Source: Hirudinaria manillensis (lineage: Eukaryota > Annelida > Clitellata > Hirudinida > Hirudinidae). From it: 64,000 nucleotides of DNA. Made by a program: the position numbers and the translations under genes. Each line of letters begins with the position of its first letter. Position 1 is the stretch's first letter. Positions 34,350 through 46,469 of this stretch are shown piece by piece. The stretch spans positions 5,704,001 through 5,768,000 of the forward strand of contig CM067537.1 in the NCBI GenBank assembly GCA_034509925.1. The letters run 5' to 3'. Below the pieces are notes generated by a model. It was given only the letters and a program-made list of their open reading frames with translations. It searched no databases and had not been told where the DNA came from.

Positions 34350-35234
34350 ATGGCAGAATTTAGACGTAGGTACGTGATGGGCAGGGTGAAAATGTTGTTT
34401 TTTGCAGCGGTTTTGGTACACCTTTCGTCATTGTCTGAAAGTTGCCGTAAGTTTTAAAACGAATTTTGACATCATGGGGCATTTATAATGTAATGTAATG
34501 TTAATGTTGATCTATTTACAATATTTAATGATTATAAACTAGATTATCAACTTTATTCAAGAAAATAAAAGAAGTTAATTTTTGTAAACATTTGTTTTCA
34601 AAATATTTCAATCATGTGACATAAAATGCTTTTAATCTCTATAACCTTATCACTTTATAATGATAATTATAATGGTAATGCGTATAATTGAAAACTAATT
34701 CATAACTTTCAGTTTATCCATACTGCACCCAGGTGTGAGTGATTTGGATTGTTTTTGATTCATTTGTAAAAATAACTTTCTTTGATTTGTAGAAAAATTT
34801 CAGATGCCATCGAAAGCTTTGCTGTGAGACATTTATTTTTCTAAAATTATTAATTATTATAATTATTATTATTATTTATTCATACAATTATATATATTAT
34901 AATATTTTAACAGCAATGTTGATCCAGATATAGAAACAGACATTTGGATCAATATCAATTTATTAGATACGAGTTTATTGGAATAAAGCATAAACTTGAA
35001 TATCCTTTATTTTGGCACCTTTATTGACCTTATATTGATTAGAAATTATTTTATAACACAGATGTAAACGCCAATCGTAGCCGCGGATTTATGACGATGC
35101 TGGGGATCAATTGTACAACAGTGATTTAATTTTGATGATTTAAAATATATTATAAAGAAAATGAAGTCACATTTTATTCGCATCCTGTTTTACAGTACTA
35201 CGATTGTTGCAAAATTCACGAAATTGAATGCTGA
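34350..35234 (+). CDS. secreted eight-cysteine peptide, cluster copy A
   Basis: Five exons: 34350-34446 (signal peptide, ends ...SESC), 34713-34732 (YPYCTQ), 34793-34823 (KNFRCHRKLC), 35062-35120 (SRGFMTMLGINCTT) and 35196-35234 (YYDCCKIHEIEC, then TGA). All introns are GT-AG with phases 1, 0, 1, 0. The secreted part has eight cysteines in the order C-C-C-C-C-CC-C, so four disulfides are possible. It is the first of four tandem paralogues, and its last intron is only 75 bp. The alternative Met at codon 10 or 15 is nearer the hydrophobic stretch. The family is not recognised. Such peptides are typically defence, signalling or venom-like molecules, but nothing here decides which. Confidence 0.7.
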
Positions 35235-36857
35235 ACGTCTTAAAGAGGTGCCTTTTTAAAAATTGGTTAAAATTGAAATATACTGTTTTTTTTTCAAGCG
35301 AGTTTACATCTTGTAATGCATAAGACAATTTTCTTTTTACTTTTTAAATCAATCTTTTAAGCATTGGTTTATAATCTTCATTAACTGTTATTATAAAAAT
35401 TCCTCAAACTCCACTTTGGTCGATCCATCAAAGTGTTATATTGGAGAATGTACTCATTACGTATTTAAACCCCAAATAACTTAGAAAAAATATTGAAATG
35501 AAAATTCAGATCTGTCACATTTCTTTTGATTTCAAAGGTTAGCTTTGTTAAATAATTTGTGATTTATAAATGCATTTATACCGCAGATTAAAAAGAAAAT
35601 GATTTTAAAGTCAGGATCTGGAGAAGATAATGTTTCAACAAGTTGCCGATCAGTCTTAACTTTTTGTACAATGCATATCATTTCTGGTTTTTGATTTAAA
35701 TATTATAAGTCTAAAATTAAAATTACAAATAAAATATATTAGATATAATTGAATTTACCAATAAAATTTGTCTTTGCTGTGATAACTGCATCGAACAACA
35801 CGAGTGTTACCAGTCCTAAGTTGCCATTAACATAAATTTAAATTGCTTCCAAAAAGTCTGTCGGCTAGGGTCACTTTTTTAATTGAAGCTTATTTAATAA
35901 AACCTCAGATATAAAAATATGCGGACGGAATTTGTTTTTTGGCTCTGCAACTGCATTCCCCCCAAAGAGGACTATTATTGTTCTCACCCACCTCTCTGAC
36001 CCGCGGTGATCCCAACTTTCAAAATTTCCTGAGTAAAAGTAGTTGAATAGCTCTGGCTTGTATTGTGAGTTAATCTGAAGTATTTTTTTGTTAAACCTGA
36101 ATAAAAATGATCGAAATGGCCATTTCTACGGTACTCGATTTCGTAATGAATTAATATTTGATTTATTGATTGATTAACAAGATTATTCATAATTAATGAA
36201 TCAAGTAATTAATAATTAATTCGACCGATTTATTGTTCCATTTTATCCGATTTAAAATATTACAAGCTCTGAGAGTTGCCATTAAAGCAAAGTAAATATT
36301 AAATTATTTCTTTTACCGCGAAGAATTTGATAACATTTATGAGTGGGTTTAGTGCATTTCATTTTGAAACTAGCAGTTGAAAATAGGTTTTATAAAAATT
36401 TAGCCATAAAATATATATTTATTTAGTCATAATTTCGGAATAAGAAGTTTAACGCGAAGCCCTAATGACATATAACGTAACAATTAGCATCATATCTTTT
36501 GAATAGTGGGACAAAGTGTTATTGCAAAAATTTGTCTCGCGTACTAATCACAATTACACATTAATTGTGGATATAAATTAAATGCAATTAATTATTATAA
36601 ATATAAAATTATTACAAATATTAATTTATGACTGTGAAGTAGTTTGGTCGTTTTCGTGTCGAAATGAAATAAATTTTCTGTCAGAGGAAGACATTCATCA
36701 GTTATTTGTAGCTTTTAATGCCCCAAGCTTCGTTTTGTTTGCTGAAACTCTCTCTGGTTGTTGATGTTGTTGTTGTTGTTTTCATTCACAGGATTGAAAT
36801 CTCAACAAAAATCTTTGCCAAGGAGTGTATAATTGTCTTTCAGTGGAGGAGTGAGGA
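35235..36857. other. spacer between cluster copies A and B
   Basis: AT-rich, no supported gene. Short open frames at 35984-36190 (minus) and 36582-36764 (plus) lack support. Confidence 0.4.
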
Positions 36858-43828: not shown

Positions 43829-45116
43829 AGCAACTATGCTTGAAAAAGGGGAACACTTTTGAAGAACTTGATTTTATTTTTTAAAATTAAACTTTTAATA
43901 TTTAATTAAAGAATTAAAATTGAAACTTTAAAGTTGCAGACGATGCAGCAAATTAGTTTTATTTCATCATCGCCATCATCATTATCATCATCATCATCAC
44001 CATCTCTTGTTATCATTTATCATTATCATCAAATGTTAAAGAAATGATTTTTAAAGTTAAATAATCAATTTATTACTATTATATTATAAGATAATTATTA
44101 TTTTATTAGAATACAATAATAACATTATATTATATTATAATATAATTATTATTTTATTATAATACAATAATAATATTATATTTTATTATAATAATTATAA
44201 TAATTATAATGAACTAAATATTAGTTTCTTCTTTTTAAACAAGTTTTAATCGATTGACCTTGCAAATTTAATTCAGGTCATGTAACATACCGGTATATGT
44301 TAACTTTAAGAAATATTCATGTTCAAACAACAACAACAACAACAACAACAATAATAATAATAATAATAATAATAATAATAATAATAATAATAATAATAAT
44401 AATAATAATTTTAATGATAATGATAATGGTAATGATAATGATAATAACAATAATAATATTAATAAAAACAACCACCAGGAACGAAAAAACAAAATTTTAA
44501 ATATATATGGGTGCGAATGGTGGCATCGTGTGTCGTTGGTCCATCTTAATTTTTGAAATTATTAAAAATTATCGACTGCAAATTAAGTCAATATTCATGT
44601 GTTTTATTTTGAACCAATAAATATTAACTACTTAATGTAACTATTTGTGTTAACTATTTGTTAAAATAGTTAACTTTAAAGAGGAAGCATTTAAACGTTT
44701 ATTTCTATTTTTTTTTTTTTGAGTTTATGAGTTTATTGAACAAACAGTTATGTACACAAACGAAACAAATGAAACATAAAATACAAAATAAACTCATATT
44801 TAAAACTCTCAATTAATATTAATTAATATTAATTACTTTTATATTACCTTAATTTATACCCTTAATTTACACCCTAACATTTGTGAGGAGTCATTAAACT
44901 ATTCCTAAATCCTATAAAAACGTATGTCGTTTTGAAATACACAAATCACAAAACGATGATAGAACGTGTTGTTGTTTTTTTAAACTGCTCTGACACCCAA
45001 AAGAATATTTAAAAAATAATATAAATATGAAATTACCTTATGACCTCAATGAACTCTCTCATAAACCTCATGTGGTCAAATCTTGAGCCTATTTGAAAGC
45101 TGTTAATCCTTCTGTG
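43829..45116. other. spacer between copies C and D, triplet repeats
   Basis: Contains CATCATCATT near 43968-44005, a palindromic AT-rich stretch 44080-44215, a CAA/AAT array at about 44328-44408 and a T-run near 44708. No gene is supported. Confidence 0.7.
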
Positions 45117-46469
45117 ATGAAGTCTGAAAAGCTTGTCTTTGTACTCGTCATCGGTTGTCTCATATTCTCGTGTGAAAGTTGCAGTTAGTCATTAAATAAA
45201 ATAAATAAATAAATAAGTAAATAAATAAATAGTTTATTTAAATATGTAAATATAAATGTCGTTGTTAGATAAAAACTTATTTTTATACATACTTATGGTT
45301 TCCTTAAATACTTAATTTTGATGATTATAATAAATAAATTGAAAATCGATTTTATCTATTTTCTATTTAATTATTACTAAATGAAATGTAATTTTTAAAA
45401 AAAATTAATAATTTAAAATTGAACTTGTGATGATTAGATTGATTTTTTTCATAAATAGAATTTAATCATAACAATTTCTTTACTTTCAGTTGAAAACCCA
45501 TGTTCTAAGGTGAGCTTTAGGAACTTTGGAATCAACATTTGGAATTTTCATTTCCATTTTTACAGGAGAACTTTCTTTGTTATTACAACAAATGCGGTTA
45601 GAATTAATTGAATTAAGAAATAATTAAGTGAATTGATTTTAATTTATATTAATATACATATTAATATATATTATATAATGTATATTTTAAAAGGTTTATG
45701 AAATGTAATTACATTATATACAATAAATAGTTTATTTTGAACGTAATTAAATTATATTTATGAATAATTAACACTCTTTTCACCTATAAACAAGTATTGA
45801 TTATCGTTAATCTTTGAATTAAGGTGTAATTGATCTAAATAATTTAAGAATATATGTATTTAATATTGAATTAAAGTTATTATCCATTTATTTTATTTTA
45901 AGAAGATATCACTACCTTACGCCTTATCAGTATAAGTTTCAAAAATTGTACCTAAATATCATCAAATGATCTTTCCAAACTTCATCTATAATTATAAACA
46001 TTTAATTCACAAAAGATTAAACTCATAATAACCTATTTTCATTTGATATTGGTAAAGTATTCGACAGAAAATAATTTAATCCATGAGAAAATCATTCAAA
46101 AATGCCTGTTGATTGTTGATTTATTCCAAACAGCTTTTTTTGAAGCAACATTTCTAAGCGGTAAAGGTGCCTTTTTCGTTGAAGATTTCACGTGCAAGAA
46201 GGTAATTCATATTTTAATCATATTTTATTTAAATAATTTTTATTTTTATTTATTTAATTTTAATTTAATCATTTAATTCAAACTTTTATTTCATATTTTC
46301 ATCGAAATCAAATCAAATGCGATTATATATTCTTATTTATCTTCACGTTATTTAACATTTGAACTTTCGTTTTGTAATTAAACAAATTTAAAAATAAATT
46401 TTACAGTATAGGGATTGTTGTTCTCATATGCCCTGTAAGAAGATATTGGGGAGGTTGGTGATGCTGTGA
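45117..46469 (+). CDS. secreted eight-cysteine peptide, cluster copy D
   Basis: Exons 45117-45183 (signal peptide MKSEKLVFVLVIGCLIFSC, ending ESC), 45490-45509 (ENPCSK), 45566-45596 (ENFLCYYNKC), 46134-46201 (FFEATFLSGKG, FTCKK) and 46407-46469 (YRDCCSHMPCKK, tail to TGA). Phases are 1-0-1-0, and exons 2 and 3 have the invariant 20 and 31 bases. Eight cysteines fall in the shared order. The signal-exon boundary (AAAGTTGCA|GTTAGTCA, or GAAAG...) is nearly identical to copy B, suggesting B and D are closest relatives. The C-terminal tail after the last cysteine is longer and basic. Function is unknown. This is one of the cleanest members. Confidence 0.72.

Follow-up and report, generated by a model that had tools for sequence, protein, structure and literature searches.

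Four tandem genes with a fixed five-exon plan and a shared eight-cysteine frame in Hirudinaria manillensis

Lineage-specific families of secreted cysteine-rich peptides are numerous and of a common kind. Here we describe a candidate of this sort, four tandem genes with a fixed five-exon plan and eight cysteine codons each, in a 64,000-nucleotide stretch of Hirudinaria manillensis (GenBank assembly GCA_034509925.1, contig CM067537.1, positions 5,704,001 to 5,768,000 of the forward strand; below, the window). Several described systems come close to these genes in one respect or another. The LDL-receptor class A (LDLa) module has a first hairpin C-x4-[FY]-x-C-x4-C, a later C-x5-C step and an acidic calcium box D-x-S-D-E between its last two cysteines. 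Three-finger (Ly6/uPAR-type) proteins have the cysteine order of our genes, C-C-C-C-C-CC-C, together with a phase-1 intron after the signal peptide and an Asn directly after the last cysteine, and because somatomedin B domains share this order too, both with other spacings, cysteine order alone is weak evidence. In SVWC (von Willebrand C-type) peptides Cys1 and Cys2 lie about 20 residues apart, and the inhibitor cystine knot (ICK) has the order C-C-CC-C-C.

Published descriptions touch on the same elements. A passage of PMC4379518 gives the order C-C-C-C-C-CC-C for the centipede VWC-type peptides SLPTX16, and one of PMC13115929 gives eight conserved cysteines for SVWC peptides. In an excerpt of PMC4065081, where C-C-CC-C-C is pattern I, our order occurs only within a longer pattern. 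For conopeptides it is listed as 'unnamed 1' in a table legend of PMC7551347, and a passage in the text of that paper has a longer pattern; the 4-6-4 spacing in a tomato defensin table likewise belongs to a longer one. The Schistosoma micro-exon genes (MEG), as a section of PMC10526429 describes them, have 10-20 exons, most of a length divisible by three, and encode secreted proteins through very short exons that are hard for annotation. Searches limited to open-licence PubMed Central papers, including ones for cysteine order and spacing, turned up no family that matches ours.

Exon plan and cysteine frame

An initial annotation of the window had proposed four same-strand genes with five exons each and intron phases 1-0-1-0, and our exon-by-exon rebuild, made from positions 34000-52000, bears this out: each of the 20 described exons is there (Table 1), the phases hold in 4/4 genes, all 16 introns (56 to 3715 nt) are bounded by GT-AG, and the precursors of genes 1-4, of 81, 87, 68 and 82 residues, are read in open frames with a single terminal stop each. 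As annotated, in every gene exon 1 ends with TGY plus one nucleotide (phase 1), exon 2 has 20 nt and one cysteine, and exon 3 has 31 nt and two. Exon 4, for which 59-71 nt and a final cysteine had been given, measures 59, 71, 59 and 68 nt in genes 1-4, the differences being multiples of three, and its cysteine is followed by 2, 4, 2 and 2 codons. In exon 5 the annotated CC and final cysteine are found in 4/4 genes, followed by a stop directly or after a short tail, and it is only the spacer between them, given as two to seven residues, that has to be narrowed to x(2-6) (6, 2, 2 and 4 in genes 1-4). The description as a tandem gene family is supported.

The four genes share the frame C-x4-C-x6-C-x4-C-x(17-20)-C-x(5-8)-CC-x(2-6)-C. 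Written out for genes 1-4, the spacings are 4-6-4-(17,19,17,20)-(5,8,5,5)-0-(6,2,2,4), of which the first three are identical in 4/4. Besides the cysteines, an aromatic residue two positions before Cys3 and a single Phe within the long loop between Cys4 and Cys5 are conserved. The annotated Phe-x-Gly core survives as this one invariant Phe column; its strict form is present in only two of the four (F-I-G in gene 2, F-V-G in gene 3), gene 4 having F-L-S-G and gene 1 F-M-T.

Table 1. Positions in the window of the four genes, their exons and the LINE frame inside gene 3
Feature	Position	Strand	Length and evidence
Gene 1	34350-35234	+	
Gene 1 exon 1 (putative signal peptide, ends after Cys1, phase 1)	34350..34446	+	97 nt, GTAAGT donor
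Gene 1 exon 2, Cys2	34713..34732	+	20 nt; rebuild and pattern scan
Gene 1 exon 3, Cys3 and Cys4	34793..34823	+	31 nt; rebuild and pattern scan
Gene 1 exon 4, Cys5	35062..35120	+	59 nt; rebuild
Gene 1 exon 5, Cys6-8 (CC-x6-C) and stop	35196..35234	+	rebuild and pattern scan
Gene 2	36858-38222	+	
Gene 2 exon 1	36858..36942	+	rebuild
Gene 2 exon 2	37085..37104	+	20 nt; rebuild and pattern scan
Gene 2 exon 3	37311..37341	+	31 nt; rebuild and pattern scan
Gene 2 exon 4	37690..37760	+	71 nt; rebuild
Gene 2 exon 5, CC-x2-C, tail to GKR-stop	38166..38222	+	rebuild
Gene 3	39478-43828	+	
Gene 3 exon 1	39478..39547	+	rebuild
Gene 3 exon 2	39774..39793	+	20 nt; rebuild and pattern scan
Gene 3 exon 3	39898..39928	+	31 nt; rebuild and pattern scan
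Gene 3 exon 4	40028..40086	+	59 nt; rebuild
LINE open reading frame, 912 codons, inside gene 3 intron 4 (3715 nt)	40514..43252	-	
Gene 3 exon 5, CC-x2-C and stop, beyond LINE	43802..43828	+	rebuild and pattern scan
Gene 4	45117-46469	+	
Gene 4 exon 1	45117..45183	+	rebuild
Gene 4 exon 2	45490..45509	+	20 nt; rebuild and pattern scan
Gene 4 exon 3	45566..45596	+	31 nt; rebuild and pattern scan
Gene 4 exon 4	46134..46201	+	68 nt; rebuild
Gene 4 exon 5, CC-x4-C, basic tail and stop	46407..46469	+	rebuild and pattern scan

Known families and chance as alternatives

The initial annotation recognised no known family, and for the libraries searched we agree: none of the four peptides has a credible match in Pfam, NCBIfam or PDB sequences. 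All four were searched against Pfam with E up to 10, where filters drop most matches above 0.1, and single-sequence PDB searches were made with genes 4 and 2, genes 1 and 3 entering via alignments only. Viral contigs searched with the gene 4 peptide only gave no relative, a result of little weight given that the genes are spliced. The following matches we take as chance: DUF7396 in Pfam for gene 1 (E 0.086, residues 8-28), and for gene 4 a Treponema lipoprotein model both in Pfam (E 0.2, residues 4-31) and in NCBIfam (E 0.0068, residues 4-48, 15.5 bits against a cut-off of 294). PDB sequence matches to NETO2, to phospholipase A2 (of bee), to ICK toxins and to carbon monoxide dehydrogenase were at noise level.

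Of the known families, the one that survives comparison best is the LDLa module, although we consider it quite unlikely that our genes are divergent derivatives in which Cys2-Cys4 form the first hairpin and Cys5-x5-Cys6 the later C-x5-C step, with a longer middle loop and an extra disulfide. The likeness lies in C-x4-[FY]-x-C-x4-C at Cys2-Cys4 and is not significant. An LDLR module was the top match in both PDB profile searches, in which LDLR and VLDLR made up 5/8 (best E 0.28) and 6/9 (best E 0.21) of the matches, and the alignments keep three cysteines and the aromatic residue at equal spacing, one VLDLR stretch also having the 4-6-4 of Cys1-Cys4. However, these E-values (0.21 to 9.7) are at noise level, and no LDLa model is found among the Pfam matches of the four peptides. 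The acidic calcium box is absent from 4/4 sequences, Cys1 and Cys7 are additional, the middle Cys4-Cys5 loop is long at 17-20 residues, and in gene 2 the Cys5-Cys6 spacing is 8 instead of 5.

That the family consists of VWC/SVWC peptides appears distinctly improbable to us. All four genes do have eight cysteines in the order C-C-C-C-C-CC-C, the order given for SLPTX16 and the number conserved in SVWC, but no VWC or SVWC model is among the Pfam matches (0/4 peptides), and Cys1 and Cys2 are 4 residues apart here against about 20 in SVWC. The genes match the three-finger family in their order of cysteines and in having an intron that follows the signal peptide, but membership is highly improbable: no such model is among the Pfam matches, the spacing is strongly unlike the three-finger pattern, and Asn follows Cys8 in 0/4 genes (stop, D, stop and K in genes 1-4).

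Two further systems resemble the genes in part. A C-x5-6-CC-x4-C stretch of the spider ICK peptides SGTx1 and Mu-theraphotoxin-Cg1a is similar to Cys5-Cys8 (SGTx1 E 0.47; single-sequence E 0.71-1.5), yet the order C-C-C-C-C-CC-C differs from that of the knot. With the Schistosoma MEG our genes have in common very short exons and products predicted to be secreted, but there are five exons here, the fixed 20 and 31 nt are not multiples of three, and there is a cysteine frame.

There is also the question of whether the plan could be a product of chance. A scan of both strands of the window for the full chain (open signal exon, exon 2, exon 3, exon 4 with late cysteine, exon 5) returned exactly the four genes on the plus strand and nothing on the minus strand; the single pieces numbered, plus against minus, 8 and 17 (exon 1-like), 5 and 2 (exon 2-like), 4 and 0 (exon 3-like) and 4 and 1 (exon 5-like). 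Strict exon 2 and exon 3 patterns match only the four known loci on the plus strand and none on the minus strand, and 60 first-order Markov sequences gave on average 0.73 matches per strand to exon 2 and 0.03 to exon 3 without its aromatic residue. Moreover, an exon 2-exon 3 pair was found in 0/300 simulated 64-kb sequences (150 second-order and 150 third-order, one strand each). Less selective single patterns match more often, 11 times on plus and 7 on minus for a wide exon 2 and 4 and 2 times for exon 5. Relaxed exon 3 patterns occur elsewhere at 3771, 50609 and 55746 (plus) and 47386 (minus), and relaxed exon 5 patterns at five other places on the plus strand and in seven rows on the minus strand. 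A relaxed exon 2-3-5 chain revealed no fifth copy in the window, recovering the four known genes on the plus strand (gene 4 twice, with two acceptors) and none on the minus strand. So although most exons are tiny, the patterns were chosen after looking and the wide exon 2 pattern has 18 matches over both strands, a chance origin of the four chains is very unlikely given their exon order, their frames open to one terminal stop, their 16/16 GT-AG introns and the silent minus strand, and it is barely credible that cysteine codons and splice-like sites came together by chance in AT-rich DNA or that the family is dead.

Divergence of the copies and their surroundings

The initial annotation also read the dissimilarity of the copies as rapid or diversifying evolution and suggested a dN/dS comparison. 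This claim is not supported. Over 25 ungapped codons per pair, chosen because they are alignable, including six cysteines and leaving out the long Cys4-Cys5 loop, synonymous differences (pS 0.63-0.85) are saturated and near random, and non-synonymous ones (pN 0.44-0.55) are below them in 6/6 pairs, with no excess of amino-acid change seen; the gene pairs share 6 to 11 identical residues of the 25. Loose blastn searches between the loci gave 36 alignments, two of which were seen to pair corresponding exons, one covering exons 2-3 and the intron between in genes 1 and 4 (58% over 274 columns), the other exon 1 of genes 2 and 4 (69% over 72 columns). Nine other placed alignments, 81-98% AT, join non-corresponding places, including the one with the best E-value (gene 2 intron 4 against the TTA array of gene 3). 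Age by itself can explain the divergence of the copies, and for the 25 alignable codons the sequences point to old copies that have retained the cysteine frame with no measurable sign of diversifying selection. Diversification may have occurred in loops, the long Cys4-Cys5 loop being the likeliest place, or among orthologs.

The last intron of gene 3 carries a probable long interspersed nuclear element (LINE) whose frame matches RVT_1 in Pfam (E 1.9e-29) and, over residues 188-899, the PDB entry 8gh6_A 'Reverse transcriptase-like protein' (E 3.5e-92), with named R2 proteins from E 5.9e-70. It lies between (ATT)n at 40215-40313 and (TTA)n at 43253-43739, arrays as expected for an element that targets TAA repeats, and it is probably of the R4/Dong type. 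Because the insertion is outside the exons gene 3 can stay intact, although its transcript has to run through some 3.7 kb. Like the introns and the style of the genes, the element fits animal DNA.

Elsewhere the window contains a broken inverted duplication, 6708-13345 against 20233-29110, in which 6708-9894 matches 25661-22468 (91% over 3252 columns) and further blocks, separated by stretches without blastn alignment, are up to 99.4% identical (13175-13345 against 27941-27771); the pairing of blocks 12066-13345 with 29110-27771 does not keep the register of the remainder. At 4052-4591 (minus) lies a 179-codon frame whose putative product, hydrophobic at its N-terminus, has a dibasic KKR site and, in its C-terminal part, six cysteines (C..CC..C.C..C). 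This product matches nothing in Pfam or PDB and resembles a secreted precursor of the prohormone type. Likewise without a Pfam or PDB match is the product of a 532-codon frame at 31764-33362 (plus), near the start of which stands the KEN-box-like DEDKENLIP. Finally, a 666-bp (ATCC)n array at 13943-14608, several frames of which are open as IHPS/WMDG repeats, we take as a microsatellite and not a gene.

Predicted precursors, possible roles and significance

Secretion of the products, which the initial annotation had proposed, is supported by a 10-residue hydrophobic stretch before Cys1 in 4/4 genes (mean hydropathy 2.37-3.41) and by small residues at positions -3/-1 before it (S/S, C/S, V/C and C/S in genes 1-4). 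Following the general -3,-1 rule, these residues fit a signal peptide cleaved just before Cys1. The putative mature chains of genes 1-4 would then have 50, 60, 46 and 61 residues and net charges of +4, +1, 0 and +3. Their ends differ, in that genes 1 and 3 stop directly after Cys8, gene 2 ends in NQYVFGKR and gene 4 in a basic tail within which Gly-Arg occurs. Gly-Lys-Arg at the very C-terminus is the usual signal for C-terminal amidation, and the tail of gene 2 is therefore a putative signal of this type.

Taken together, we consider it likely that the four genes are an anciently duplicated, provisionally orphan animal tandem family of small secreted peptides with four disulfides, probably acting as extracellular effectors. 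Transcribed and spliced according to the plan, each gene would yield a signal peptide followed directly by a mature chain of 46-61 residues, with its N-terminus at Cys1 or shortly before it and a fold built around four disulfides. The copies would have kept the cysteines, the aromatic residue before Cys3, one loop Phe, the intron phases and the lengths of both micro-exons as the rest drifted, and from this retained frame with its drifted remainder we suggest that the copies may share one stapled frame but differ from each other in exposed surface and in the extracellular target that each binds. Several points weigh against this interpretation. All scan patterns were fitted after the four genes had been seen, and so the test was not blind. 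The case for secretion is built on hydropathy and not on a trained predictor, and 14% of 755 open ATG frames, which overlap and are not independent, also pass the cut at hydropathy 2.3. The pN/pS result is limited to its 25 codons, six cysteines among them, without the long loop. Lastly, charges of 0 and +1 in two of the four chains argue against simple cationic antimicrobial peptides.

As to use, we judge a defence or venom-like effector the likeliest, tentatively and at somewhat less than even confidence. A reproductive or structural use is possible but less likely, and a peptide signal, supported by the tail of gene 2, whose product would be C-terminally amidated, is somewhat unlikely. More doubtful, though conceivable, is that the C-C-C-C-C-CC-C frame represents an undescribed animal disulfide fold carrying both free-ended effectors (genes 1 and 3) and an amidated peptide ligand (gene 2, ending in VFGKR), in copies long kept for different targets.

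The gene family itself looks real and adds a putative four-disulfide frame that is apparently unassigned to any family in the libraries searched, its general kind being common. Small secreted cysteine-rich families whose exons measure 20 and 31 bases are difficult to detect through similarity or open reading frame length. In this 64-kb window the fixed exon plan together with the cysteine frame, fitted afterwards, singles out the four genes, and the combination, if applied blind to other DNA, could become a genome-wide scan.

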